A DNA stretch of 33,718 nt from IMG/VR virus record IMGVR_UViG_3300017752_000071, positions 1 to 33,718 of that record; one strand, 5' to 3'. The translations under genes and the position numbers were made by a program. Under the pieces are notes generated by a model that worked only from the letters and a program-made list of their open reading frames with translations, did no database searches and was not told where the DNA came from. This document shows, piece after piece, positions 9,204 to 33,718 of this stretch (position 1 is its first letter; each line of letters begins with the position of its first letter). The DNA is from a virus.

Positions 9204-10535
9204 ATGGCTAAACAAACAATTAATATCGGCGCATCTGCGAACGACGGGACAGGTGACCCGCTCAGAAATGCGTTTGATAAAGTAAACGACAATTTCAACG
9301 AAATATATTTTGGGGCAGGAAGTGGTAGTAGTATTACTAACTTCTTCGATTCAAATGGAAATTTGGATCTAGTAGGCAAGCCTCATAAAATAACATTTTT
9401 ATATTCTCAATATGCTGACCTACCTACAGCAAGCACATATCACGGTGCGGTCGCACATACACATGATACTGGGTCATTATATTATGCCCACGGTTCATGG
9501 AGAAAATTACTAGCTGATAATTCCCTTAATGATATCACAAGTTATACTGACCCTCTAAGCAAACATGTTTATTTAGCCAATATCACCAATACCGAAACAG
9601 CTGATTACGTCCTCAAAACAAATGCTGATGGTACATATACTTGGGCTGAAGGTGGCTCTGGTGGAAGTGGCGATGTTAACCAAAATGCATTTAGTTCTAT
9701 TGTAGTTGCTGGTTCATCAGATGTTGTGGCAGATAATGCGACAGACTCATTTACACTTATTGCTGGCTCAAATGTAACTCTTTCAACCAATGCAACCAAC
9801 GATGCAATTACAATTAATGCTTCAGCTGGTGGTGGAGGAAGTGGTACTGACCTTAATAGTTTATCAGGTGGAACACTTGATGTAGCAGCAGATAGCATTG
9901 GTTTTGTTGATGCTGATGATTCTAATAATTCTAAGAAAGACTCGATTGCTAATTTAGTTACAGCAATTGCAGGTACTAATATTACAGCTACAAACGGAGT
10001 GTTAAGTGTCGCGGCACCAGGTACATATTCAAATTCAGATGTTGATACTCATTTAAATACAAGTGCAGCAGGCACTAACGAAATTTTATCTTGGACTGGT
10101 TCTGATTATGCTTGGGTTGCTGACCAAACTGGTGGTGGTGGAGGTGGTTCTGGTGCGGTACGTGTTACTGAAACAGAAACTACATCTTCAGTCGCTAGTG
10201 GCTCGAGTGCTTCTGTTCAATTCGCTACACTAGGCAAATCCTTCTCATTACAAAAGGTTACTGTTGACAAGCAATGTTGGGTAAGAATATATTCTGATAC
10301 AGCAGCAAGGACAGCTGATGCAGGTCGATCACAAGGTACTGACCCAGCAGATGGTTCTGGTGTTATTGCAGAATTTATTGCAACAGGCTCTGGCTCTACA
10401 GAATTTAAAATCACTCCTGCTATTTCAGGTTGGCTTGATGATAGTGAAACCGAGGTTCCCGTAGCAATACAAAATAATAGTGGTTCTGCCGGAACCGTAG
10501 AATGTATAATACAAGCACTTAAATTAGAGTCTTAA
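9204..10535 (+). CDS. Tail fibre-like virion protein with NIGASANDGTGD N-terminal anchor
   Basis: This 443-aa protein opens with INIGASANDGTGDPLRNAF followed by DKVNDNFNEIYFG, an N-terminal segment shared by many phage fibre and adhesin proteins and thought to attach them to the virion. The middle is Ser/Thr/Ala/Gly-rich with three glycine runs (about 151-155, 210-213 and 310-316) that look like flexible linkers between beta segments. The last 125 residues (from GAVRVTETE) form a compact beta domain containing CWVRIYSDTAARTADAGR and GVIAEFI, a C-terminal domain I associate with structural proteins of marine phages. It is preceded by a good ribosome site (TTAGAGGAC) and an exact late promoter. 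Which baseplate or fibre position it occupies cannot be told. Confidence 0.65.
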   Translation: MAKQTINIGASANDGTGDPLRNAFDKVNDNFNEIYFGAGSGSSITNFFDSNGNLDLVGKPHKITFLYSQYADLPTASTYHGAVAHTHDTGSLYYAHGSWRKLLADNSLNDITSYTDPLSKHVYLANITNTETADYVLKTNADGTYTWAEGGSGGSGDVNQNAFSSIVVAGSSDVVADNATDSFTLIAGSNVTLSTNATNDAITINASAGGGGSGTDLNSLSGGTLDVAADSIGFVDADDSNNSKKDSIANLVTAIAGTNITATNGVLSVAAPGTYSNSDVDTHLNTSAAGTNEILSWTGSDYAWVADQTGGGGGGSGAVRVTETETTSSVASGSSASVQFATLGKSFSLQKVTVDKQCWVRIYSDTAARTADAGRSQGTDPADGSGVIAEFIATGSGSTEFKITPAISGWLDDSETEVPVAIQNNSGSAGTVECIIQALKLES

Positions 10536-19871: not shown

Positions 19872-20054
19872 ATGTCGTTTCAAAAAGATGAAAAAACACA
19901 GGCAGTACTGAACACAGATGTCGCTGCGTTGAATAAATATAAGATTGAAAGGACATATTATCGTAAGGTAGATAATCTGACTACAGACATTCTTGAAATT
20001 AAAAGAAGTTTAATTACTATCTGGGAAAAGATAGAGGAATTGGAAAATAAGTAA
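19872..20054 (+). CDS. Small coiled-coil protein of the fibre block
   Basis: This encodes 60 aa. An in-frame upstream ATG at 19815 lies inside the preceding gene; the start at 19872 is preferred because AGAAGGA (19858-19864) precedes it at good spacing and begins right after the preceding stop. The stop overlaps the next ATG (TAATG). The first 25 residues include LNTDVAALNKYKIER. The C-terminal half (VDNLTTDILEIKRSLITIWE and on) has a heptad pattern of hydrophobics and is predicted to be coiled coil. It lacks cysteines and signals. A helper for trimerising or attaching the adjacent fibre is plausible from position. I do not recognise a named family. Confidence 0.65.
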   Translation: MSFQKDEKTQAVLNTDVAALNKYKIERTYYRKVDNLTTDILEIKRSLITIWEKIEELENK

Positions 20055-21262
20055 TGGCTAAACCATCGTTAGGAAATATCGCAACTACTCAGACCTTCCA
20101 AAATTGGTTGGATAAAACAAATGAAGTAGTCGATTTAATTAAAACAGATGTTATAACAGCATCTGGTGGAGCTGGTGATACTACTTCCGGTAATGCTACT
20201 TTGGCTGGAACATTAACAACCACCAATTCAACTGTTGATACATTATTAAGAACAAATGATATTGCTGCAAGAACTACTTCTTCAATTAATTTTCAAAATG
20301 CTATTAATGTCACTAGTGGTGTGGCAGCTGCAGCGACATTTAGTTTTGGTTCTGGTGGTAGAGTCAATTTTACAGACAGTGCTACTACCTGGGAAGCAGG
20401 TATGGAATCTTCCAACCCTGCGAACTTTATTATCGACACAGGAACAGGACAGACTAAATTAGAGCTTTCAACAGCTGGTTTATTAACGGTTCCGGCAGCT
20501 ACGGTCACAGGTACACTTACAGTTGGTTCAATATCCATAGGTGGTGCTGGTGCAGGTTTTACAACTGACCAAGTTACTGAAGGTGACAATAATTTATATT
20601 TTACAGTTGAACGTGCTAGAGCAGCAATTAGAGCTGAGGACCTTCCAACAGATATAGATGCTGATACAGTTGATGGTTTAGAGGCAGCACAATTTATTAG
20701 GTCTGATGCTGATGATATAGCCTCGGGCGATTTAACTTTTAGTGGTACATTAGACATTACAAATGGTGCAACTTCAGCACTTAATGTCACAAATGGTGCA
20801 ACGTTTGGAAACACTGTTGATATTACAGGTGCGCTTGATGTTACCGGTAATACTACGTTAAAAGGATCTTTATTAATTAATAATAGTGCTGATGAAGGCA
20901 TATTACAATGTGACACAGCTGGTAACCTTATTGTTGTAGGTGATATTACATCTACTGGTACTATATCAGATGAAAGATTAAAGGAAAATGTAGTTAGGTT
21001 AAATAACTCATTGGAAAAAGTTACACAGATTAATGGTTACCTATTTAATTATATAGATAGACCAGATGAACCAATGCCGGGTGTACTTGCACAAGAGATT
21101 GAAAAAGTGTTACCTGAAGTTGTTTATGATTTTGTGCAGGAAGATACAACATATAAAGCAGTTCGTTATGCAAATATTGTACCTCTATTAATTGAGGCAA
21201 TAAAAGATTTGAAGGAAAAAGTAGATGATTTAGAGGGTCGCGTAAATAGCGACAACAATTAA
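20054..21262 (+). CDS. Tail fibre protein with C-terminal S74 intramolecular chaperone
   Basis: This encodes 402 aa. The N-terminus PSLGNIATTQTFQNWLDKTN followed by EVVDLIK is a fibre anchor seen in marine T4-like phages. The middle is a Thr/Ala/Gly-rich beta shaft with TVDGLEAAQFIRSDADD, a phrase common in phage fibres, and repeats such as ITNGATSALNVTNGATFGNTV. Residues 305-402 form a peptidase S74 domain: S305-DERLKENV gives the Ser305/Lys310 dyad, followed by INGYLFNYID, GVLAQEIEKVLPEVV and YANIVPLLIEAIKDLKEKVD, which ends in a coiled coil. In this family the C-terminal domain trimerises the shaft and is then cut off just before the Ser, so about 98 residues would be released. It overlaps the upstream gene by one base. 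Confidence 0.87.
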   Translation: MAKPSLGNIATTQTFQNWLDKTNEVVDLIKTDVITASGGAGDTTSGNATLAGTLTTTNSTVDTLLRTNDIAARTTSSINFQNAINVTSGVAAAATFSFGSGGRVNFTDSATTWEAGMESSNPANFIIDTGTGQTKLELSTAGLLTVPAATVTGTLTVGSISIGGAGAGFTTDQVTEGDNNLYFTVERARAAIRAEDLPTDIDADTVDGLEAAQFIRSDADDIASGDLTFSGTLDITNGATSALNVTNGATFGNTVDITGALDVTGNTTLKGSLLINNSADEGILQCDTAGNLIVVGDITSTGTISDERLKENVVRLNNSLEKVTQINGYLFNYIDRPDEPMPGVLAQEIEKVLPEVVYDFVQEDTTYKAVRYANIVPLLIEAIKDLKEKVDDLEGRVNSDNN

Positions 21263-21304: not shown

Positions 21305-24300
21305 ATGGCAAAAATTTCAGAACTAGGTGCAATATCAGGCGCTAATACCAGGTCAGAAGACTTATTGGTTATCGTTAACCTTGTTCAGGGTGACGACGGC
21401 ACCAAAAATATTACAAGAAAAGAACTTGTACAGGCAATCCAGTATGAGGAATTTGATCGTATAAACATTACTGGCGGAACTATTTCCGGCGTCGTAATGC
21501 GTGACTCGCGAATAGACAACGTAGTAATTGACAATTCAGATATCGAAGATACAACCTTTGTAAGAGGTAGTATTGATAATACTGACATTACAAATTCCAC
21601 AGCCAATAATATTAGCATTACTCAATCTGACTTTATCAATGGTGAGATCTTTAATGGTACTGCAAATAATGTAACCATCACTCAATCCGAATTCCTAAAC
21701 GGTACTGTAAATAACACAATTATTACAAGTTCAGAATTTAATGATGGAACAATAGCAGATTCCACTGGTAATAATGTTATACTTACAAATTCAGAACTAA
21801 ATGATTCTACAGCAAACAATGTTGTCATTGAAAATTCAGAGTTCAATAACGGTACAGCCAATACTGTTGTTATGGTTAACTCAGAATTTAATGATGGTAT
21901 AGTAAATAATTCAGTAATTGTTAATTCAGTAATTAATGATTCTACTGGTAATAATGTTGTACTTACAAATTCAGAACTAAATGACTCTACTGGTAACAAT
22001 AGTGTATTCACAAGTTCAGAGTTTAATCAAGGAACAATTAATGATTCTGCCTTCCTAGATGGCACAGTTAATAATACAATTATTACTAATTCTGAATTCA
22101 ACGATGGTACAGTTAATAACACAATTATTACCTCATCTGAATTTAATGATGGTACTGGAAATAATGTAGTACTTACAAATTCAACCATTGACGATTCCTT
22201 ATTTACAGATGGTACAATATCTAATACTGATTTCCAAGGTACAATGCAAGATGTTGTAGCTACCGATATGACAATCAGAAGTTCATCTGCTGATGGACTC
22301 TCCTCAAATAATTCAAGCTTTGATAATGGTACAATGGCCGGGTCTGTATTCTCTGGTGGTACCATTGATAATTCTAAACTTGTTGACTTTGACATGGAAC
22401 TCAATAACGAGTTCGAACCACCACTTGATGAAGAAAGTTACTTTGCAATTCGTAACGAAAAAACTGGTGATACTGAACAAATTAACTTTGCTCAACTCTA
22501 TGATGAAGTTTCCAAAAAGACAGCCCAGGCACTTAAAGTTAATGTAGATGCTGCATCTGGTGATGATGCAAATCCAGGTACAATGTTACAACCTGTCAGA
22601 ACATTGGAAAGAGCTTTTGAACTCTGTTTGGAAAAAGCAGGTGGAGATTTAAACAGAAACGCTATTAATAACGCGGTTCATATTTCTGTTGGTCCTGGAA
22701 CATATTATACAAAAGGTAATCTTATGTTACCGGATGACTGTTCTTGTACTTCTACTGCTGGTCAGTATGCAACAGTTATTGAATTGCTTCCTGGATACGA
22801 AAACAATAACGGAATCTTAGTTGGTTCTGGTGGTTATGTTCAAGGATTTGGTTATCAGAACTTTAAAGTTGATAACTTTGATTTCCCAGAAGGTGGATTC
22901 GCGATTGCTTATCGACCTGGTGCCAAACTATTACGTTCACCTTACTTAAGAGATAGTACTCAGTTATCTAACTTCTTACGTCAAGATGTTGAACCACCTC
23001 TTAATCCTTATAACTCAAAGGGAACACTTGCTGATTTAGGCCGACAATTCTATGTTGACCCATCTTATACTGGTACATTTGCTGTTGATGATGAAATTAA
23101 ATTTAGTTCTGGTGCTGTAGGTTTTATCACTTATGTTGATAGTCTTGCAACCAATAATGAGATATATGTAAGAAACCTTAAAAACAATCAAGGATTTGCT
23201 GTTGGTGATACAATGACAGCAGAATCCGGTGGTGTTGCTGTTATAACCGAAATCGGTATTGATGATTTCCCTAACAGACAGGTAGGCCGTGGTGGTGGTT
23301 GTGTACTCGCGGACAGAAGAGTACTAGATACTGATTCACTATATACCTACGTATTATGTTTTGGTTTCACACCTCGTACTCAAAATGGTATAGGTTATGT
23401 TGCTAGAGACGGAGCTGGTGTTAACGGTATTGGTTCTCTATCAATTTTTGTAAGATGTGCATTCTACGCCTTAAATGGTGGTCAGATGACATTGAACAAC
23501 TCAGGTACTCAGTTCGGTGATATTTCAATGAGGGCGAAAGGTTCTACAATCTTTATGCAACCTAGAAATACTACTGCTAACATTATCGGTAACACGGCAT
23601 TCGCTGATACGATTGATACAAATGCTGATTCAATTATTGATGATATGGTTGATTACCTATCTGCAAATACTGCACAAGGTGGCTTAGACTACACATTATA
23701 TGATTCAGTTAAATGTGAACGCGACAGTGGTATTATTTTAGATGGTGTTGGATACGATATTGCATTAGACACTAACTACTGGTCCAGACTTGCTGGTATT
23801 TCATATCGTTCCCCAATAAGTTCTAAAGTTATAGGTGAACAGCTTGATGCAACAATAGGTGCAAACGAATATCTCCAAGGTAGAGTTGAAGCTCTATTTG
23901 GTGACTCTAATCCTGATATTGTTGAACGTGCAAATACCTCATTCCAAGAACTTTATAACGTTGTAGAGTATGGTGAAGAAAACATCAATCCTATTATCTG
24001 GAGAGATACAGGGAATCAAAACTATACTAACGCTAGAGAGTTATTACAAGACAATAAAGAATTAATCCAAGATGAACTTATAGATTGGATTGAAAACAAT
24101 GGCGAATTTTATGCTTATAATAGTAAATCTTGCCGAAGAGATGTACAAGATTATATTTTACCAGCTGTCGAAAATGACATGTTACTGGACACAAACTATA
24201 ATTCAGTTACAGCAGGACGCGCATATTATATGGCAACTGCAAAAACAGTTTTGGAAAATCAAAACAATGAAACTGTTGCTGCATACAGAAGATTAAAAGA

Positions 24301-27300
24301 TCAAACCAATGAACTTGTTGACGGTGATTCATATCTTGCTACACAAAGACTTGATGAAGGTTTTGATGAAATTTTATCTATCCTTGAAAATAAAGGAACA
24401 CAGTTTACTCCACCAGCTGCCACTTATGACCCTTCAACCGGTTTATCAGTTATCACACTAAGCACAAGTACAAAGTTTACACCAAGTACCGCTACTTATG
24501 ACCCTGCTACAGGAATTATGGTGGCAACTATTGGAGCTCACGAATTAACAACTGACGACCACATTTGGTTCAAACCAGGTGGAATGACATTCAGTTGTGA
24601 TACAGGTTCTGGTGTACAAAATCATGCTGTACCTGAAGCTCATCACCCATATTATAATACTCCTTGCCCAATTACAGCTGTAACTGAAACTACTGTTACG
24701 TTAAATGTTGGTAAAGGTGGTCCGACAGGACAACAGGCTCATACCTTTGTATCAGCTGTTAAAAATGCACTTGCTTCTGGACACGGTTTAGGAGTTGGTA
24801 GAAAAGTATTATTAAAAACTGGTGGTCTTATATTTACATGTGACAGAGATAATAATGTCGCAAAAACTGGATACCCAAGAGCTTCTGACCCAGCTGCTGG
24901 TACTCCAATAGATGTAATCGGTGCAAATGAAACTAAGATTACAGTTAATGTTGGTAAATCTGTACTGATAGACGAACATACATTTGTTGAGGCATTACCA
25001 AATTCGGTTTCAGTATTAGGTTCAGCACTAAGATTTAGTGATGACGCCGGTATTGCTGCTGATAATATTAATGCTAGAAAACAATTACAAGCTAATAAAG
25101 AGTTTATACAAGAACATATGCTCGGTTATATTGACTATAACTTCTTCAGATATGATTCTGATAAGTGTCGTAGAGATGTAACGAAATATATTCTTCCTGC
25201 AGTCGAAAGAGATATATTGACAGGAACAAATTATAATGCAATCCAAACAGGTCTTGCTTATAGAAGTGGAACAACTCTAGCTGATAACGTAATTAATGAC
25301 CAGTTGGTAGAAACTTCTGGCGCAATTACAGAATTAAAAACAAGAGTTAATCTCAATAATACAGAATCTGGTTTTACTGTAACAGATGCTACTTATGATC
25401 CTGCAACAGGACGATTTGAGGCCACAATCGGCGCTCATACAATGGCGGTAGGCGATTATATAAAATTTGCAGATGAAGGTATTACAATGAGTTGTGATAT
25501 GGGAAGTGGTCAACAGAACCACACTTCACCACAAGCTCACCACCCTTATTATAGAAAACCTTGTCCAATTACAAGTGTAACTGATACGACTATTGTAATG
25601 AATGTTGGCGATGGCGGAACTGGCCAATACCCACATACATTTGTTTCAGCTGTTGCTAATGCAATTACTCCTGAAAAAGGTATCGGTTTAAGTTATACTC
25701 CAACAACTGCTGATTATGACCCAGTCACTGGTAAATTTACGGCTGAAATTGGACCACATACACTTCAACCAGGCGATATGTTAAAATTCACTGCTGGTGG
25801 TGTTACATTTAGTTGTGATACAGGAAGTGGTCCACAGAATGACTCTGTTCCAGCTGTTGGACATCCATATTATAACCACCCATGTCCTATTGAATCAGTA
25901 ACAAGAACTTCAGTTTCAATGTTTGTTGGAACCGGTGGAACTAATGCTCATACATTTGTATCTGCCTTAGATGATGCTCTAACTCACATGGTAAGTATTG
26001 ACGATAATGCTTCTGGATTCAGAAGTAATGAATCATTCGATGAAATACTTACAATCATGAATGACAGAAATAAGTTATACTCAACAACAAATGCTACTTA
26101 TGACCCAGCTGGTGGTATGACAGAATTAACAATTGGCACGCATGATTTCCAAATTGGAGACCAGATATTAATTGCAGCTGATAGTTTAACATTTACTTGT
26201 GCGACCGATGGTGACGCAACAGAACATACATACCCAACCACAACAATAAGTACTTTCTCTCCGACAGACGCGACTTATGTACCATCTACTGGTGTATTTA
26301 CAGCAACAATCGGAACTCATAAATTACAAATTGGTGATTTAGTAGAAATTGCTCCATACTCATTTGCATTTACTTGTGAAATGGACGACAATGCTACTGA
26401 ACATCTAGCGCCTGAACCACATCACCCATTCTATAAAAAGAAGGTTGCTATAACAGGTATTACCAGTAATACAATCACAATGAATGTTGGTTCTGTTGTA
26501 AATGGTGGCGGAGTACACACATTTGTATCTGCACTACCTAACAGTATTGAAGGTGAAAGACAACACCCTGCTTACAAGAAACCAGTTACGATTGCTTCAA
26601 AAACAGCAACAACGATTTCTGTTAATGTAGGACCTTCAACTGACACATCAGTTCATACATATGTAAGTTCAACAGCTGACAATATTAAACCAGCTAAATA
26701 TACATCTGCATACACACCAACAACTGCTACTTATGACCCTGCAACTGGTGTCTTTGTTGCAACGATTGGTAATGGCCATAATCTTGTGGCTGGTGATTAT
26801 GTAGAAATTAAACCTGAATCTATTGTATTCACTTGTGCTCTTGATGGTAATGCTACAGAACATGCTGTACCTGAAGCTCATCACCCATTCTATAGAGTAC
26901 CGGTAATGATTAGTAGTGTTACTGCTGATACAATTACAATGAACGTTGGTACTGGACCTGGTGGAGCTCACACATTTGTAAGTGCAAGTGTTGGTGCAAT
27001 TGATTCTGATGCACTTGTCTTTACGGATCCGGCTTCATATGTAAGTTACTTTACTCCAACAACTGCTACATTTGTACCGGCAACTGGCGACAGTGTCATT
27101 ACTTTACCTGCAGGACATGGTTTAACAACAGATGATTATATTGAGTTCGCTCCATATTCATTCACATTTACTTGTGCACAAGATGGTGACGCAACAGAAC
27201 ATTCATATCCAAGAAAAGGTGACGTAAATTACAGAACACCTATGGCAATTACTGCTGTAAATGGTAATGATGTAACAGTTAACCTAGGTGCTTCAACTGG

Positions 27301-30300
27301 TGGTCTCCACACATTTGTAAGTGTTGAAAAGGATGCTGTATCTAAAGTCACTTATAATTCTCAAGGCCAATATGCTAGAGAACAATTACAGAAAAACAAA
27401 ACATTCCTACAAGAAGAAGTTACATCTTACTTAGACAGTCAATACTTTGTATTTAATGGCGAAAAGTGTAGCAGAGACACAGGCTTTATATTAGATGCAG
27501 TACGCAGAGATGTTGCAACTGGTTCTAATTATAATTCAGTCTTTATGGGTCTAGGATATCGCATTGGAACTAAAGGTTCAAATGAGGTTATTACAAATCA
27601 ATTAACAGAAACTGTAGGCGCAATTAACTACCTTAAAGGTCGTGTTGCTGCTGAGGCAAGTGTTACAGGAACTGCATTAACTCGTGCAAATGCTGCGTTT
27701 GATGAAATCGTTGACATTATGTCAAATGGTACTGCAAATGCTGATGCTCTTGTTTACGGAACAGATGCAAGTGTAAGTGTTAATCACACTATAGGCTCAA
27801 ATGCTTTAATTAATAATAGGGCATTTATTGTTGCTGAGGTTACAGCTTACATCGCTGACACATTCCCAACATTAACATATAATGTTGCAAGTTGTGAAAG
27901 AGATACAGGTTATCTTATAGATGCAATTGTTTGGGATTTAAGATTCGGTTACAATACTGCTGCAATTAACTTTGCAAGACTATACTTTGAGAATGCAATT
28001 TCTACATTGCCAGAGGACCAAAAACTTCCAACAGCTAAGACTTGGGAACATATTGCAAATGTTGCGTATGATATCGTAAGAGATATAGCTGTTACTCCTA
28101 CAACAGGAAATGCTGCATCACAAGATGTATCATTAACAGATGCTGGTGTTGAAGTTGGTGAGGCTGCAAGGGCAGGTATTAATGTTACTACTCAAATTAT
28201 TAGAGATGATAACTTACAATCACTTCCTGCAATTAATGAAGGTAATGTTGAAGCTGCAATGGCTGGTGCTGTTACTACCATCGATGGTATAACTGAAGGT
28301 TTACAATCAGGTGTCATTGACTTCCTTAAAGATGAGTATAATGGATTACCTTATGCTGTTGAGACATGTAAACGTGATGTTGGTCTTATGGTTGATGCAG
28401 TATCTCGTGATATTGAATACGGTGGTAATGAGAATACATTAGAAGTGTTTGATTACTACTTCAGAAGATTCGATTCTCAATCAGCTGATTATGAACAACA
28501 GCGTTCAATCAACGTATTGCCACTTGAGGTAAAAGGACAGTTCAAAACACTATCTAATTACGACGATAACGCCAATGTTTCTGGTTTAAGAGAAGCAATT
28601 AATGTTCTTCCTTATGACCAACGTGGCCCAACAAGAGATGCATTTGCTCATTTAGCTGATGTCGCTGAAAAGGTTGTTAAAGAAGTTAATCATTCAACTA
28701 GTTTCAATAAATTCACTCCAACGAATGCTACTTATGATCCGGCAACTGGTGTGTTCACTGCAACAATCGGTACTCACGACCTTGTAAAAGGTGACAGTGT
28801 TTGGTTGAAACCTGAAGGATTTACATTTAGCTGTGATATGGGTGGCGGTGCTGCTAACCATACTTCACCTCAAGCACATCATCCGTTCTATAACAAACCA
28901 GTTACAATTACTGAAACAACATCTACTGTTATTACAATGAATGTTGGTGGTGGTGGTTCTGGTCAATATCCACATACTTTTGTTTCAGCTGACGCTCAAT
29001 CAATTAGTGAAGGACCATATCAAAATGTTGATGGAACAGCTGCTGATGCTACAACAGGTACAACAGTTCACGATTTATTAAATCTTATTGCCAACCTGGT
29101 TGATGATACTAATATAGAAACTGCTCAATTACCAACATTGGTTAAGGCTTCATACGATCCAAATAGAACTCTTGCTAGAAAACAGCTACAAAGAAACAGA
29201 GACTTTATTATTGAAGAGGTTCAAGGTTATATTAAGGACAGATATTATGTCTTTGATGGCGACAAATGTAAGGCTGACCTAGGATTTATCCTTGACGCAG
29301 TTAAAACTGATGTGCTAACAGGTTCTAATTATAATTCCATATACGCAGGACTTGCTTATAATATTGGAACAACTAATACAACTAGAGTATTAACTGAACA
29401 ATTAACAGAAACAGTTTCTGGTATTAATTATGCTAAGAAACTTTGTATTGAAGCTGTAACTGACGGTAGTGCAAAATTAAAAGTTGAACAAAGTTTTGAT
29501 GAAATCATAGATATTATGACTAATGGTAGAGGGGCTGCTGATGTAATTAATTACACTGGAACTGCCTCAAATAATACTAGGATTAGTGGTAGATCTCAAT
29601 TACAAAACAACAAGGCATTCTTACAGGCTGAAATAACAGCTTGGCTTGCTGCAAACAGACCTTCACATTCCTACGATGTAGCAAAATGTGAAAGAGATAC
29701 AGGTTATATGATTGATGCAATATCATTTGATACTCAGCATCAAGGTAACTTTGCGACCATAAACTTTGCTAAATTGTATTTTGAAAATGCAATATTGGTT
29801 GGTTTACCTGCGGATCAAGTTGAACCGACAGTAGCTGCATATTTACACTTAGGTAATTGTGCAAACCTTATTGTTCAAGATACAGATATTGCTGGATTAA
29901 AATCATCTGGTAATGCTGCATCCCAGGACTTTAGTGCTGCCTCTGCTGGTGCTCCTGTAGGTAATGAGGTTCGAGGATTATTTAATATTGTTGCTGATGC
30001 AATTGAAGCTGGAACAATGTTATTAAGTCCTCCAGTTGCTATGCCAACTCTTACTACATATTCTGCAGAAAATCAAGCTTCATTCGGTGAAATTGAAAAT
30101 ACTAAATCTACAGCTCAAAATGGTGTATTATCTCACCTTGCTAAATACTTTGAGGTATTACCATATAGTGAAGAGAAGTGCAGAAGAGATACTGGCTACA
30201 TTGTTGATGCCATATCACACGATATCCAATATGGTGGTAATGCTGCAACAGTACAAACAGCTGGTATGTATTTTGAAAATGCTGTAAATACTGGTTTACA

Positions 30301-32485
30301 AATTGAACAGAGAATGGGTTCAAGAGATGCATTCCTCCACATGGCAAAATTGGTCGAACATGTTGTAGGTGGTAAATCAATCACAACTACAATGTTCCCA
30401 AGAACTGGAAAATATTACACAGGTGATATAGTAACGAAATACGAATATTGGAATGGATTACATTCTTATCAAACAACTGAAGCCCAGGATATGCAAGTAC
30501 ATGGTGCAAATCCTAGAACCTCAATTGCTGCAAGAAAACTTGCTGAGATTGTTGCTAATGCTGTTGATGATAATATTGAGGTCGGTACAACAATTCCAGA
30601 AATGATTGATGTTGACCAAACATGGCAAGGTCAAAATTATGTGGTTGCTAAAGAAATAATCGAAAAAGGTAAAGTACATATATCTGAAAAGATAATTAGT
30701 TACCTTTCAAATGTACATAATGGATTATCATTTAGAGATGCCAAGTGTAGACGTGATATCGGTTATCTTATTGATGCTGTTTCACACGATGTTCAATATG
30801 GAACAAACTTTGCTACAAGACAATCTGCAGGCATTTATTTTGAAAATGGAATATCTGTTCTACCGATTGACACAAGAGCTCAAACTGCAACAATTTACGA
30901 CTACCTAGGTACCGTGATGAGTAATGTGGTTCAAGAAATTGATTCTGCAAATACTACATATTCAATATTCCCACAAGATACAAATGGTACTGCTGCAACT
31001 GCTACTGAAGGTGCAAGAGTTGATGAATTAATGGGTTACGTTGAAAATGTCATTAGAGCTAATGATACTGATGAGTTACCTGCAATTGAGGCTCCAACAA
31101 CTACTTGGGTCCCTGCTCCACTTGTTAGTGCTAAAACTAAGATTATGGATAATTCAGAAGAACTTGCTACTGATATAACAGACTTTATTAACTCTAGCTT
31201 TACTGTTCTTGATTATGACAGAGTAAAATGTAGACGAGATACTGAATACTTAATTGATGCATTTAGTTTCGATATGAACTTTGGTGGTAACACTGCTTCA
31301 AGATGGAACGCAGATTTCTACTTCTGGAATTCAGTTTACAGATTGCCTGAAGATCAGAGAATACCAACTGCTAAATCATACCGCCATTTAGGTAGAATTG
31401 TTAAAGATATAGTAATCGGTGAATATCCAGGTCAGAAGGTCCTTGGTGGAATTGCTTCAGAAGTTGAGGCTACTAAGGTTCAAGGTCTTGCAGATATGTT
31501 CTATAAAACACAACTGTATGACGACACGAAATATTTACAGGTTAAAACAGAACCAACATACACAGATCCTAAATTTAAGGATGCTTCAGATATCATTGGT
31601 CAAAATAGAATTGCATTAAGTAAAGATACTGTGAGATATGTTGGTGCAACTTATAAATATATAGATGACGCTTTAACCAGAAGAGATGCAAGAAACCTTC
31701 TAACAGCTGTCCAAAATGACTTTAAATATGAAAATGTAAATGTTCCGGCACCAAGTTATCAAACAAATGGTAACTCAAATGCTACAATGACATATACTAC
31801 TTCATTCTTTAACTTTGATGGACGACATGTATTCCCGGTATTTAATGCACAAAGAGCTGAATTGAAATACCAGGGAAGTATACAAGGACCTGTTTCAAAT
31901 GGTGGCCTTGCAAGTATAACTGGTATGAAACCAAATCATGCTTATATTGTTGCTGATGATATGACAGTAAGTCATTACACTGGAACTATATACTACTGGG
32001 ATGGTAGTGCTTGGCAATTAGATGGACCAAATAATACTGACCTATTGGATGCATTTACTGGGGCTTGGGATAGAATTAAAACAAATCTTGTTAATAATTA
32101 CTCTCCAAACTCAGAACATAGCTTGATGATTGAAGGTTTATTTAATGATTGTATTAAAGGCAATGTATTAAGACCTAGTACTCTGGTATTCGGTTCATTG
32201 GTTGAGTCAATTGCTCACCAGTTTAATGGTGCTTCGGCAGGTGTTAACAGAAATGCATTACCTCTGAACTTTAGAAACTTAGGTTCTGCAATATCGGCTA
32301 TCGCTTCTGTCCTAAATGAGGATGGTGGTAGAATTAGATGGTCGGGTGCTGACGAATTGAATAACCAATATTTTGCAAGAGGATTGAAAATTAATGGTCG
32401 AACAGGAAGAATTGAAGGACGACCATTTACATCATCTGTAAGAAAACTTGCAAGAAGAGCCTCAAATAGTAGAGCTAATATTTAA
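21305..32485 (+). CDS. Giant modular tail fibre/adhesin protein (3726 aa)
   Basis: Residues 1-50 (MAKISELGAISG...EDLLVIVNLVQ and TKNITRKELVQAI) are a fibre-type anchor. About 73-312 is a 15-residue repeat (NDGTVNNTIITSSEF type). From 413 (NVDAASGDDANPGT...PVRTLERAF) to about 764 is a pectin-lyase-like right-handed beta-helix. The rest alternates helical modules carrying K-C-x-R-D-x-G...DA, with Cys at 804, 943, 1288, 2055, 2197, 2355, 2655, 2795, 2959, 3148 and 3309, and beta modules starting TPTxATYDPATG and ending HTFVSA (main array 1033-2010, one more at about 2470-2570). A unique C-terminal domain from about 3480 contains DGRHVFPVFNAQ, YYWDGSAWQLDG and GRTGRIEGRPF. It is probably the main adsorption fibre or a whisker-like decoration. 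No enzyme motif is evident. The start is supported by AAAGGAAAG. The reading frame is open throughout, so the gene looks intact. Confidence 0.8.
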   Translation: MAKISELGAISGANTRSEDLLVIVNLVQGDDGTKNITRKELVQAIQYEEFDRINITGGTISGVVMRDSRIDNVVIDNSDIEDTTFVRGSIDNTDITNSTANNISITQSDFINGEIFNGTANNVTITQSEFLNGTVNNTIITSSEFNDGTIADSTGNNVILTNSELNDSTANNVVIENSEFNNGTANTVVMVNSEFNDGIVNNSVIVNSVINDSTGNNVVLTNSELNDSTGNNSVFTSSEFNQGTINDSAFLDGTVNNTIITNSEFNDGTVNNTIITSSEFNDGTGNNVVLTNSTIDDSLFTDGTISNTDFQGTMQDVVATDMTIRSSSADGLSSNNSSFDNGTMAGSVFSGGTIDNSKLVDFDMELNNEFEPPLDEESYFAIRNEKTGDTEQINFAQLYDEVSKKTAQALKVNVDAASGDDANPGTMLQPVRTLERAFELCLEKAGGDLNRNAINNAVHISVGPGTYYTKGNLMLPDDCSCTSTAGQYATVIELLPGYENNNGILVGSGGYVQGFGYQNFKVDNFDFPEGGFAIAYRPGAKLLRSPYLRDSTQLSNFLRQDVEPPLNPYNSKGTLADLGRQFYVDPSYTGTFAVDDEIKFSSGAVGFITYVDSLATNNEIYVRNLKNNQGFAVGDTMTAESGGVAVITEIGIDDFPNRQVGRGGGCVLADRRVLDTDSLYTYVLCFGFTPRTQNGIGYVARDGAGVNGIGSLSIFVRCAFYALNGGQMTLNNSGTQFGDISMRAKGSTIFMQPRNTTANIIGNTAFADTIDTNADSIIDDMVDYLSANTAQGGLDYTLYDSVKCERDSGIILDGVGYDIALDTNYWSRLAGISYRSPISSKVIGEQLDATIGANEYLQGRVEALFGDSNPDIVERANTSFQELYNVVEYGEENINPIIWRDTGNQNYTNARELLQDNKELIQDELIDWIENNGEFYAYNSKSCRRDVQDYILPAVENDMLLDTNYNSVTAGRAYYMATAKTVLENQNNETVAAYRRLKDQTNELVDGDSYLATQRLDEGFDEILSILENKGTQFTPPAATYDPSTGLSVITLSTSTKFTPSTATYDPATGIMVATIGAHELTTDDHIWFKPGGMTFSCDTGSGVQNHAVPEAHHPYYNTPCPITAVTETTVTLNVGKGGPTGQQAHTFVSAVKNALASGHGLGVGRKVLLKTGGLIFTCDRDNNVAKTGYPRASDPAAGTPIDVIGANETKITVNVGKSVLIDEHTFVEALPNSVSVLGSALRFSDDAGIAADNINARKQLQANKEFIQEHMLGYIDYNFFRYDSDKCRRDVTKYILPAVERDILTGTNYNAIQTGLAYRSGTTLADNVINDQLVETSGAITELKTRVNLNNTESGFTVTDATYDPATGRFEATIGAHTMAVGDYIKFADEGITMSCDMGSGQQNHTSPQAHHPYYRKPCPITSVTDTTIVMNVGDGGTGQYPHTFVSAVANAITPEKGIGLSYTPTTADYDPVTGKFTAEIGPHTLQPGDMLKFTAGGVTFSCDTGSGPQNDSVPAVGHPYYNHPCPIESVTRTSVSMFVGTGGTNAHTFVSALDDALTHMVSIDDNASGFRSNESFDEILTIMNDRNKLYSTTNATYDPAGGMTELTIGTHDFQIGDQILIAADSLTFTCATDGDATEHTYPTTTISTFSPTDATYVPSTGVFTATIGTHKLQIGDLVEIAPYSFAFTCEMDDNATEHLAPEPHHPFYKKKVAITGITSNTITMNVGSVVNGGGVHTFVSALPNSIEGERQHPAYKKPVTIASKTATTISVNVGPSTDTSVHTYVSSTADNIKPAKYTSAYTPTTATYDPATGVFVATIGNGHNLVAGDYVEIKPESIVFTCALDGNATEHAVPEAHHPFYRVPVMISSVTADTITMNVGTGPGGAHTFVSASVGAIDSDALVFTDPASYVSYFTPTTATFVPATGDSVITLPAGHGLTTDDYIEFAPYSFTFTCAQDGDATEHSYPRKGDVNYRTPMAITAVNGNDVTVNLGASTGGLHTFVSVEKDAVSKVTYNSQGQYAREQLQKNKTFLQEEVTSYLDSQYFVFNGEKCSRDTGFILDAVRRDVATGSNYNSVFMGLGYRIGTKGSNEVITNQLTETVGAINYLKGRVAAEASVTGTALTRANAAFDEIVDIMSNGTANADALVYGTDASVSVNHTIGSNALINNRAFIVAEVTAYIADTFPTLTYNVASCERDTGYLIDAIVWDLRFGYNTAAINFARLYFENAISTLPEDQKLPTAKTWEHIANVAYDIVRDIAVTPTTGNAASQDVSLTDAGVEVGEAARAGINVTTQIIRDDNLQSLPAINEGNVEAAMAGAVTTIDGITEGLQSGVIDFLKDEYNGLPYAVETCKRDVGLMVDAVSRDIEYGGNENTLEVFDYYFRRFDSQSADYEQQRSINVLPLEVKGQFKTLSNYDDNANVSGLREAINVLPYDQRGPTRDAFAHLADVAEKVVKEVNHSTSFNKFTPTNATYDPATGVFTATIGTHDLVKGDSVWLKPEGFTFSCDMGGGAANHTSPQAHHPFYNKPVTITETTSTVITMNVGGGGSGQYPHTFVSADAQSISEGPYQNVDGTAADATTGTTVHDLLNLIANLVDDTNIETAQLPTLVKASYDPNRTLARKQLQRNRDFIIEEVQGYIKDRYYVFDGDKCKADLGFILDAVKTDVLTGSNYNSIYAGLAYNIGTTNTTRVLTEQLTETVSGINYAKKLCIEAVTDGSAKLKVEQSFDEIIDIMTNGRGAADVINYTGTASNNTRISGRSQLQNNKAFLQAEITAWLAANRPSHSYDVAKCERDTGYMIDAISFDTQHQGNFATINFAKLYFENAILVGLPADQVEPTVAAYLHLGNCANLIVQDTDIAGLKSSGNAASQDFSAASAGAPVGNEVRGLFNIVADAIEAGTMLLSPPVAMPTLTTYSAENQASFGEIENTKSTAQNGVLSHLAKYFEVLPYSEEKCRRDTGYIVDAISHDIQYGGNAATVQTAGMYFENAVNTGLQIEQRMGSRDAFLHMAKLVEHVVGGKSITTTMFPRTGKYYTGDIVTKYEYWNGLHSYQTTEAQDMQVHGANPRTSIAARKLAEIVANAVDDNIEVGTTIPEMIDVDQTWQGQNYVVAKEIIEKGKVHISEKIISYLSNVHNGLSFRDAKCRRDIGYLIDAVSHDVQYGTNFATRQSAGIYFENGISVLPIDTRAQTATIYDYLGTVMSNVVQEIDSANTTYSIFPQDTNGTAATATEGARVDELMGYVENVIRANDTDELPAIEAPTTTWVPAPLVSAKTKIMDNSEELATDITDFINSSFTVLDYDRVKCRRDTEYLIDAFSFDMNFGGNTASRWNADFYFWNSVYRLPEDQRIPTAKSYRHLGRIVKDIVIGEYPGQKVLGGIASEVEATKVQGLADMFYKTQLYDDTKYLQVKTEPTYTDPKFKDASDIIGQNRIALSKDTVRYVGATYKYIDDALTRRDARNLLTAVQNDFKYENVNVPAPSYQTNGNSNATMTYTTSFFNFDGRHVFPVFNAQRAELKYQGSIQGPVSNGGLASITGMKPNHAYIVADDMTVSHYTGTIYYWDGSAWQLDGPNNTDLLDAFTGAWDRIKTNLVNNYSPNSEHSLMIEGLFNDCIKGNVLRPSTLVFGSLVESIAHQFNGASAGVNRNALPLNFRNLGSAISAIASVLNEDGGRIRWSGADELNNQYFARGLKINGRTGRIEGRPFTSSVRKLARRASNSRANI
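21521..22240 (+). repeat. 15-residue (45-bp) tandem repeats in the giant fibre
   Basis: About fifteen imperfect units of 15 residues follow one another, of the form N-D-G-T-x-N-N-x-I-I-T-x-S-E-F. The hydrophobic spacing of five residues resembles pentapeptide-repeat or beta-prism folds, with three five-residue steps per unit. At DNA level the phrase ACTTACAAATTCAGAACTAA recurs exactly at 21781 and 21961, showing recent duplication as well as older divergence. Confidence 0.8.
22541..23600 (+). other. Right-handed beta-helix domain of the giant fibre
   Basis: Residues about 413-765 begin with VDAASGDDANPGT, then a PVRTLERAFELC helix and HISVGPGTYY, the entry into pectin-lyase-type helices. Short strands with Gly/Asn turns follow, including GGCVLADRRVL and GGQMTLNNSGTQFGDISM. 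An inserted small beta segment (FAVDDEIKFSSGAVGFITYV) breaks it at about 595-655. No catalytic residues of a polysaccharide lyase can be identified by eye. Confidence 0.6.
24400..27350 (+). repeat. Main array of beta 'ATYDPATG...HTFVSA' modules
   Basis: This array holds tandem modules of roughly 95-105 residues, some partial. Each consists of TPTTATYDPATG, TIGxHxLxxGDxV, TF(S/T)C, an acidic turn, HHPFY, IT.V...TI.MNVG and HTFVSA. Full units begin near 24477, 25372, 25694, 26255, 26714 and 27050. Truncated units occur near 24403, 24773, 26077 and 26560. A helical module interrupts between about 25050 and 25370. A further full unit stands alone at 28714-29020. Confidence 0.8.
28714..29020 (+). 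repeat. Isolated copy of the beta module
   Basis: This is a single complete ATYDPATG-HTFVSA module set among helical modules, about 1.4 kb beyond the main array. Its central part (SCDMGGGAANHTSPQAHHP) is nearly identical in protein to the unit at 25372 but differs at many third codon positions, so the duplication is old and the protein sequence is conserved. Confidence 0.75.
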
Positions 32486-32502: not shown

Positions 32503-32928
32503 ATGTCAATAGTAACAATTACAACCTCCCAAGCGCCGGACGCTAAACCGGTTGCAGTAAATCTAGTTCTATCAACGAACTGGCAGGAAATTATTAATGT
32601 ACCAAATTATGAAGTTCCTGAATTGGTATTTGGTGGTAGTACAACAGTAGAGCCTGGTGTAGGTGAGGTTATCTCTCCTTTGGTTCTTTGTAATACGTCG
32701 GCAAATACTGTAAACGTAGATGTACAAATATATAGATATGATGATAACTTAAATTATTATATTATCAGAAATATGCCAGTACCTTCATATGATACAATTC
32801 CAATTCCACTGAATGGTCAATTCCTAAAAAGTGGGGATATACTTGAGGCAAAAGCTTCAGCAGATTTAGCAGTACACAGTACATTATCATTTACCCTCGG
32901 TCAGTCCGAAGAAGATGATGTTGTCTAA
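32503..32928 (+). CDS. Small beta-rich virion protein, function unknown
   Basis: This 141-aa protein has no signal peptide and no membrane segment. It is almost entirely beta in character (VNLVLSTNWQEIINVPN, VISPLVLCNTSANTVNVDVQIY, GQFLKSGDILEAKASADLAV) with an acidic end (EEDDVV). The 'N-x-S-A-N-T-V-x-V-D-V-x-I' stretch and 'LKSGDILEAKAS' look like a small jelly-roll or sandwich, a type commonly found next to fibre genes in T4-like marine phages. It follows the giant fibre by 17 bases with an AGGA ribosome site and precedes a gap with a late promoter-like element. A fibre-connector or decoration role is inferred from position only. Confidence 0.6.
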   Translation: MSIVTITTSQAPDAKPVAVNLVLSTNWQEIINVPNYEVPELVFGGSTTVEPGVGEVISPLVLCNTSANTVNVDVQIYRYDDNLNYYIIRNMPVPSYDTIPIPLNGQFLKSGDILEAKASADLAVHSTLSFTLGQSEEDDVV

Positions 32929-32981: not shown

Positions 32982-33718
32982 ATGTCAAGTAGATTTGGAA
33001 CCCTTTCAGGTAAGAACCTTGTTATCGGTCACGGTATTCCGCAGACGTTTCCTATTCAGTTGGACCCAGCCCCGTTTGAAGGTGCTTTGGTTTATGCCGA
33101 TAACGGAGAATTAAGATATTCCGACGGTACAAACTGGCTCACAACTGGAACAGGCCCACAAGGTCTCCAAGGTACAACTGGTTCCCAGGGAACACAAGGT
33201 CTCCAAGGTGATTATGGACCTGGTTTTACAATTATTGGTGCTGTGCCAGATGTCAATGTCGATCCACCAAATGACGAACAACTTACTCTTAATAATGCCT
33301 TTCCTGCAGCAGTTGTGGGCGATGGTGTTATTGATAATACAGATGATGAGTTATGGATTTATGATGGTGCGACTTGGGTAAATATTGGTTCATTTAGAGG
33401 TGTTCAAGGTTTTACTGGTATACAAGGTACTCAAGGTGTTCAAGGAACAATTGGTAACGAAGGTATCCAGGGCGAAAGAGGTTTTAGAGGTTTCCAAGGA
33501 GAAGCTGGCCCACAAGGTACTCAAGGTGTACAGGGTGATTTAGGTATACAAGGTTTACAAGGCCGAAGAGGACCACAAGGTGTTCAAGGCGTACAGGGTG
33601 ATTTAGGTATACAAGGTATCCAAGGCTTACAAGGTATTCAAGGACCTCAAGCATTCCAGGGTGTTCAAGGTACAGACGGTATTCAAGGTTTACAAGGTTA
33701 TAACGGTGATGATGCTGG
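32982..33718 (+). CDS. Collagen-like fibre protein, N-terminal part (runs off window end)
   Basis: The frame is open from ATG 32982 to the window end (245 complete codons), and the 3' end is missing. Residues 1-57 form a small domain ([14 protein letters not shown]...[19 protein letters not shown]). A short collagen-like stretch (from Gly58, [13 protein letters not shown]) follows. A second globular insert (about 82-139) contains [16 protein letters not shown], resembling the first. A long Gly-x-y stretch runs from Gly140 to the end with Gln dominating the third position ([12 protein letters not shown]). The triplet pattern breaks once, at GPQAFQG (221-227). Collagen-like segments form trimeric rods in phage fibres. 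The start has a strong AGGAG ribosome site. The receptor-binding end must lie downstream. Confidence 0.8.
33399..33718 (+). repeat. Collagen-like Gly-x-Gln triplet repeat
   Basis: A near-continuous series of Gly-x-y codon triplets, mostly GGT-xxx-CAA, begins at Gly140 and continues past the window end. The block [10 protein letters not shown] occurs twice in close succession (near 33529 and 33592), a sign of recent internal duplication. A shorter stretch of the same type lies at 33153-33220. Confidence 0.85.

Follow-up and report, generated by a model that had tools for sequence, protein, structure and literature searches.

A giant gene in the window, the whole stretch of 33,718 nucleotides analysed here (IMG/VR record IMGVR_UViG_3300017752_000071), encodes a protein best explained as a long baseplate or tail fibre in the virion of a T4-like marine phage. 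We propose that eleven domains from the phycobiliprotein/bilin-binding-globin superfamily form a fixed row in this fibre, that a mobile beta domain accompanies them, and that the fibre carries a cysteine-bound bilin on the virion; for this explanation as a whole, fibre assignment included, we estimate a probability of about 0.5. Comparison of related sequences shows that the helical row is fixed, that the beta domain varies and nests, and that the helical modules are kin to phycobiliproteins with the CxRD motif conserved. For pigment in some such virions, we put the odds at even or slightly lower.

A giant gene in a T4-like tail cluster

The gene is a single, uninterrupted ATG frame, the one open frame of 11.2 kb already described in a first-pass annotation made from the window alone. 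It lies in a T4-like baseplate cluster, downstream of gp5/lysozyme, gp25, gp6 and gp8 homologs, and matches phrog_701, phrog_5342 and phrog_4527, which comprise virion structural and tail fibre proteins. Position in the tail cluster and virion fibre homology, two marks of a T4-like baseplate or tail-fibre gene, are both present. The following features flank or delimit it.

20054-21262, + strand: fibre protein with a Peptidase_S74 intramolecular chaperone, immediately 5' of the giant gene (Pfam)
21305..32485, + strand: giant fibre-like gene, 3726 aa (ATG frame without internal stop; phrog_701/5342/4527 matches)
21305..21478, + strand: conserved N-terminus M[AS]KISEL..I.G.NTR.EDL[LF]V[IV]VN, presumed virion anchor (common to complete orthologs)
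21758..22195, + strand: 15-residue (45-bp) pentapeptide-like repeats (TRF, Pfam)
22532..23584, + strand: candidate beta-helix region, aa ~410-760 (read from sequence only)
32183..32476, + strand: near-invariant C-terminal segment (39 aligned orthologs; model pLDDT under 40)
32503-32928, + strand: 141-aa ORF separating the giant gene from the collagen-repeat ORF (unmatched in PHROG and Pfam)
32982-33716, + strand: collagen-repeat tail fibre ORF that continues past the window end (PHROG/Pfam)

In 48 of the 72 related loci gathered for comparison, the frame is complete and exceeds 2900 aa; adding the window and removing five duplicates left 44 distinct proteins. An assembly artefact, which the first-pass annotation had named as a ground for refutation, is ruled out by two other contigs (L002 and L005) that have the 3726-aa frame at ~100% identity, and the exact window layout, common to 17 of the 44 non-identical orthologs, also counts against it. 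Nor is the size exceptional. It had been described as far above that of T4 fibre proteins, a misleading comparison; isolated cyanophages have bigger proteins built of the same modules, the larger marine T4-like examples being those of S-WAM2 (4759 aa), S-RIM2 (6378 aa) and P-SSM4 (an open frame of 7312 aa).

The 15-residue repeats reported earlier are borne out by TRF (21758-22020 and 22058-22155, 45-bp unit) and by a Pfam Pentapeptide_4 match at aa 224-297 (E 4.8e-10). The supposed unique tip did not survive comparison: the last ~100 residues are nearly unchanged across the 39 aligned orthologs and therefore do not resemble a host-range tip. In a fibre that otherwise varies, so constant an end points to a part in assembly or attachment rather than in host recognition. 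Megablast of the giant gene and tblastn of its N-terminal 798 aa returned no match, and tblastn of the C-terminal segment returned weak matches only.

Helical modules and the CxRD motif

Profiles built from the giant protein alone, with domain E-values reaching 1e-48, resolved 11 helical modules and a weak remnant at aa 3430-3477, in line with the 'about eleven' Cys-containing helical modules noted beforehand.

23609..23890, + strand: H1, CERD, start aa 769 (profile and motif)
24032..24319, + strand: H2, CRRD, start aa 910; model resembles phycobiliproteins (profile, motif, VIA)
25073..25351, + strand: H3, CRRD, start aa 1257 (profile and motif)
27374..27649, + strand: H4, CSRD, start aa 2024 (profile and motif)
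27803..28078, + strand: H5, CERD, start aa 2167 (profile and motif)
28274..28504, + strand: H6, CKRD, start aa 2324; C-terminal end displaced (fragment aa 2432-2458)
29174..29458, + strand: H7, CKAD, start aa 2624; sole departure from CxRD in the window
29591..29875, + strand: H8, CERD, start aa 2763 (profile and motif)
30089..30367, + strand: H9, CRRD, start aa 2929 (profile and motif)
30647..30931, + strand: H10, CRRD, start aa 3115 (profile and motif)
31130..31414, + strand: H11, CRRD, start aa 3276; independent second model resembles phycobiliproteins

CxRD occurs 11 times in the window protein against 0.1 expected on shuffling; ten of these motifs lie within helical modules, so that 10 of the 11 modules keep it. 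Across the 44 orthologs it is found in 479 of 484 helical modules, where every copy has the C and the D and 99% have the R, and helical modules of different positions have a median identity of 29.5%. Three further residues, D+14, N+20 and Y+30, are conserved as strongly as CxRD and have no obvious counterpart in phycocyanin, so part of the conservation has other causes. CXRD is described in PMC10151467 as the bilin site, with the Cys binding covalently and the R and D by hydrogen bonds; the same source describes related globins of heterotrophs (BBAGs) that take up bilins without a lyase.

Kinship of the helical module to phycobiliproteins

A fold prediction for each module type had been proposed as a check, and for the helical module the phycobiliprotein fold came first in two models. 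With the model of aa 905-1460, five phycobiliprotein-fold entries headed the VIA comparison (Z 11.7-13.5 over 118-123 residues; best 6yx7, Z 13.5, rmsd 2.3 over 118), and the rows below them were unrelated proteins, the next helical one having Z 7.2. With an independent model of aa 3270-3726, all 50 entries listed were phycobiliproteins (Z 11.7-13.8; best 7y4l, Z 13.8, rmsd 2.4 over 130). The globin-type phycobiliprotein fold thus appears in two models, the helical parts of which have low pLDDT (about 40-77), and helical models can reach high VIA scores by chance; Foldseek placed no phycobiliprotein among its best 50 matches and returned nothing at E ≤ 0.001. We therefore compared sequences.

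The window's own 11 modules gave no match to PF00502 (Phycobilisome) at E ≤ 10, and a PDB sequence search with the window's helical modules alone did not find phycobiliproteins; the kinship is visible through relatives rather than from the window modules alone. Profile A4, built on 22 modules (13 taken from S-WAM2, S-MbCM7, ACG-2014j and S-RIM2, plus 9 of the 11 in the window), gave 41 matches to PDB sequences at E ≤ 10, of which 38 were phycobiliproteins or smURFP (best E 0.0028). Its alignment sets phage KCrRDigyiv on phycocyanin KCARDIGYYL, CxRD on CxRD, although this agreement is less independent than the E-value suggests because the 13 isolate modules had been selected by the motif [KS]C.RD. 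Five of the 22 A4 modules match PF00502 itself (best 28.6 bits, in S-WAM2; cut-off 22.2). A whole-record search with PF00502, which involves no motif selection, scored two S-WAM2 frames above or at the cut-off (26.6 bits, E 5.9e-7, and 22.2 bits), and 8 of the 12 records had matches at E ≤ 1, with giant frames in all the matches listed; G006, an ortholog from the window's own family, reached E 0.01. On these comparisons, we consider kinship of the helical modules to the phycobiliprotein/bilin-binding-globin superfamily very probable.

Two observations stand beside this result. The first-pass annotation did not recognise the Cys-containing helical module as a phycobiliprotein-like domain. Giant frames with helical modules also lie at ~67.1-68.2 kb (3446 aa) and ~88.0-90.1 kb (3226 aa) of S-WAM2 (NC_031935.1), several virion genes of which thus share such modules.

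The helical module is like phycobiliproteins (PF00502; C-phycocyanin alpha, allophycocyanin, phycoerythrin) and BBAGs in modelled fold and profile, and each has one Cys at the putative bilin site with the CxRD columns aligned. It differs from phycobiliproteins in its additional invariant D, N and Y, and in an apparent lack of the N-terminal helices, as model alignments begin at about residue 30 of phycobiliproteins. Light-harvesting phycobiliproteins are separate alpha and beta subunits that form phycobilisome discs, whereas the window modules stand in tandem within one 3726-aa phage protein; we therefore claim kinship, not membership.

A fixed helical row and a mobile beta domain

Helical modules number 11 in 42 of the 44 orthologs and 12 in the other two. 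We chose 26 of the 44 orthologs and placed their 287 helical modules in one tree: for 284 of them the nearest neighbour is the same-position module of another phage, and for one it is a module of its own protein. Beta modules vary, with 3 to 9 copies in 17 layouts among the 44 orthologs and with variable slots after helical modules 2, 3, 5, 6, 9 and 10; 6 of the 177 beta modules in a second tree have their nearest neighbour in their own protein. The suggestion of module shuffling within one gene, to be judged by module number and order among relatives, hence stands for the beta modules and falls for the helical ones, and the variation is better described as gain, loss and nesting of beta modules than as general shuffling. 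A fibre made by free shuffling of four module kinds, as first envisaged, would accommodate beta modules that change place and number and that nest, but it is highly improbable given that helical number, order and position-specific descent are kept and that one module kind only is mobile.

Recursive nesting of beta modules

The same profiles resolved nine beta modules in the window, seven uninterrupted and two split into four pieces. The earlier count of about eight complete and several partial beta modules was right, the partial ones being the halves of the two split modules.

24404..24466, + strand: outer beta module 1, first part, aa 1034-1054 (model 1-21, strands 1-2)
24476..24772, + strand: inner beta module 1, aa 1058-1156, in the strand 2-3 loop of outer 1
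24776..25009, + strand: outer beta module 1, second part, aa 1158-1235 (model 21-96, strands 3-9)
25373..25666, + strand: beta module, start aa 1357 (profile, structure model)
25694..25981, + strand: beta module, start aa 1464 (profile)
26078..26242, + strand: outer beta module 2, first part, aa 1592-1646 (model 1-55; profile)
26255..26548, + strand: inner beta module 2, aa 1651-1748, placed in the strand 5-6 loop of outer 2
26555..26686, + strand: outer beta module 2, second part, aa 1751-1794 (model 54-96; profile)
26711..27001, + strand: beta module, start aa 1803 (profile)
27050..27340, + strand: beta module, start aa 1916 (profile)
28712..29005, + strand: beta module after H6, start aa 2470, missing from several relatives (profile)

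The pieces are not decay products, as their breakpoints are complementary (21/21 and 55/54) and they resume around a whole module. In the model of aa 905-1460, where the nested region has pLDDT of about 80-94 in most blocks, the inner and the ordinary beta module each have nine strands, and outer module 1 has two before the insert and seven after it. The second break, judged by its position in an ordinary module, probably falls in the loop between strands 5 and 6.

Among the 44 non-identical complete orthologs, the window counted, the first nest is present in 22 and the second in 29. Relatives with an empty site resemble the outer module: the un-nested module of L040 is 90.8% identical to the outer and 37.1% to the inner module of L022, and that of L046 is 79.4% and 43.2% identical, respectively, to those of L051. 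Of the 22 un-nested first-slot modules, only 14 are nearer to the outer module; the other eight are distant (none above 0.56 to either) and are nearer to the inner module or tied. The empty-site case therefore depends on the near relatives. Six beta modules of P-SSM4 gp7 and three of S-SSM7 gp7 likewise resume past an insert, with breaks at model positions 20-28 and 56-58 and once at 80, and one module holds two inserts. The beta domain thus inserts recursively at fixed loops, in distant phages as well.

Nesting in P-SSM4 gp7 (L079) goes deeper than one level, and one module begun at aa 4245, as numbered in the partial reading, is apparently resumed at aa 5320, beyond the whole array. For the beta fold, VIA ranked Uba1/Uba6 beta barrels best, at Z about 8, with Z 7.7 for phi92 endosialidase and 6.5-7.8 for tail proteins of phages N4 and T1, all too weak to name a family; a PDB sequence search with one beta module gave chance matches only.

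Bilin genes in the window family and in other phages

The window family comprises seven records, the window and six longer ones, mostly fragments. None of the seven has psbA, CpeT or CpeS, and one (G001; 169.7 kb, psbA-less) has a heme oxygenase and a bilin reductase.

L100:9855-11210 of G001, - strand: adjacent heme oxygenase and bilin reductase genes

The reductase may be PcyX-like because its score (95 bits) is below the NCBIfam PcyA equivalog cut-off of 206. A 159-aa ORF without an NCBIfam match (9375-9854) follows the gene pair, and another giant frame, of 3347 aa, occupies L198:9097-19137 (+ strand) of the same genome. As the G001 capsid protein and helicase and the window gp6 are nearest to those of Sinorhizobium, Methylophilales, Stenotrophomonas and Caulobacter phages, the host of the window family is probably a proteobacterium.

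We then surveyed 22 complete phage genomes: 6 used earlier, and 16 picked by name before the search, of which 13 are cyanophages and 3 are T4-like phages of hosts other than cyanobacteria. Helical modules were found in 16 genomes, and not in phiM12, Melnitz-2 or HTVC008M. Helical modules and cpeT (PF06206) occurred together in 15 genomes, helical modules alone in 1, cpeT alone in 0 and neither in 6 (Fisher 9e-5; 0.004 in the 19 cyanophages alone), associations that are confounded by clade. For P-SSM7, the sixteenth genome with helical modules, a table in PMC3037559 appears to list a CpeT-like gene.

At least five CxRD modules and a long CpeT coincide in 6 of the 22 genomes (S-WAM2, S-MbCM7, ACG-2014j, Syn1, S-PM2 and S-RSM4, each with at least 7 helical modules), either occurs alone in none, and 16 have neither. 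CxRD is kept by 43 of 58 modules in these six genomes against 6 of 34 in the ten with short or undetected CpeT. All six have the long cpeT on the strand of the CxRD-rich giant fibre and upstream of it, 0.3-2.0 kb from the fibre gene in S-WAM2, S-MbCM7 and ACG-2014j and about 1 kb in S-RSM4; in Syn1 and S-PM2, 1.2-1.9 kb separate it from the first helical module. All these genome patterns are confounded by clade and came to light after S-WAM2, S-MbCM7 and ACG-2014j had prompted the hypothesis; without these three, Syn1, S-PM2 and S-RSM4 carry the pattern. T-type lyases serve a Cys (beta-155) other than the Cys84 of CxRD.

Bilin reductase showed no association with helical modules (p 1.0) or CxRD (p 0.38) in the 22 genomes, and only 1 of 18 PcyX/bilin-reductase contigs of at least 16 kb had helical modules, leaving an association unsupported. 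Reductase is present in 5 of 5 Prochlorococcus phages with helical modules and in 0 of 11 other phages that have them. The idea that only phages of pigment-poor hosts supply a reductase nevertheless fails, for CxRD is missing from 3 of those 5 Prochlorococcus phages, and P-SSM2 and S-SSM7 have a reductase but no helical modules.

Discussion

In the proposed fibre, a stiff row of globin-like modules would span the distance between the conserved N- and C-terminal ends, decorated with beta domains that could be exchanged without breaking the backbone; the ends of a beta domain would lie close together, as would fit insertion into loops. The CxRD sites most likely hold bilin, covalently bound by the module Cys. 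This bilin could come from the host or from a phage heme oxygenase and bilin reductase, and could attach spontaneously or with the help of a phage CpeT-type lyase. Against a bilin-carrying fibre count the lack of a link with bilin reductase, the scarcity of bilin genes in the window family and the different Cys served by T-type lyases. The virion would thereby bear rows of chromophores, and, most speculatively, bound bilin might alter the conformation, stability or adsorption of the fibre in light.

Two other readings deserve weight, each of which we regard as possible at odds clearly short of even. The modules may be of superfamily descent and yet pigment-free, serving as stiff spacers in which CxRD is needed for packing, assembly or a metal site. 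This would suit the equal conservation of D+14, N+20 and Y+30, the loss of CxRD from 28 of the 34 modules of ten cyanophage genomes, where they yet stay in virion proteins, and the absence of bilin genes from 6 of 7 records of the window family, which has core genes like those of phages of proteobacteria, hosts that need not produce phycobilins. It leaves unexplained the joint persistence of C, R and D in 479 of 484 modules that otherwise diverge, and the pairing of a CxRD-rich fibre with a long cpeT in 6 of 6 genomes. That pairing is itself the subject of the second reading, which takes cpeT for an ordinary auxiliary metabolic gene for host phycoerythrin and its co-occurrence with the modules for shared clade ancestry. 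By gene order, the six long-CpeT genomes may indeed be close relatives, and phage bilin genes are assigned to host light harvesting in PMC2984593 and PMC11480375. Against it, cpeT adjoins the fibre gene, and PMC3037559 treats the role of phage cpeT as unresolved and that of the phage genes for phycobilin synthesis as a mystery, because Prochlorococcus has no intact phycobilisomes; host-acting and fibre-acting roles of cpeT are also mutually compatible.

Giant virion proteins of modular build are already known from marine T4-like phages and annotated there. Those of Kyanoviridae, named 'short tail fiber' or 'gp7' (S-WAM2, S-PM2, S-RSM4, S-RIM2, P-SSM4), have the same helical and beta modules, often with CxRD, and match phrog_701, phrog_5342 and phrog_4527 as the window gene does; gp7 of P-SSM4 and S-SSM7 shares beta nesting at the same loops. 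They differ in module order and ends, are at most ~30% identical to the window protein at the best places, and lack the strict 11-module row of the window family. Phage hemO-pcyX and pebS/ho1/cpeT sets are likewise matched by the G001 gene pair and by cpeT beside CxRD-rich fibres; these are enzymes of pigment supply and loading, whereas the fibre module is a candidate acceptor. We met no mention of a phage-encoded bilin acceptor in the available parts of PMC11480375, PMC3037559 and PMC2984593, the first of which leaves open, in those parts, the purpose of the phage hemO-pcyX cassette. A targeted search of the open literature (titles and abstract starts) found no phycobiliprotein-like domains in phage fibres, and a search at the same level found no recursive beta-module nesting.

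The beta-in-beta loop insertions, with their empty-site relatives, clearly illustrate how domains of a virus fibre can be inserted recursively. A virion protein that is a row of bilin-site globins would be a concrete candidate acceptor for phage-made bilin. Our broader proposal, tentative and somewhat under an even chance, is that marine T4-like phages, some of them probably not infecting cyanobacteria, carry pigmented bilin-globin fibres. If this is true, phage heme oxygenase, PebS, PcyX and cpeT would serve the virion, not host light harvesting, which would explain phage bilin genes where hosts lack phycobilisomes and might provide a link to the light-dependent adsorption described for several cyanomyoviruses in PMC2984593.
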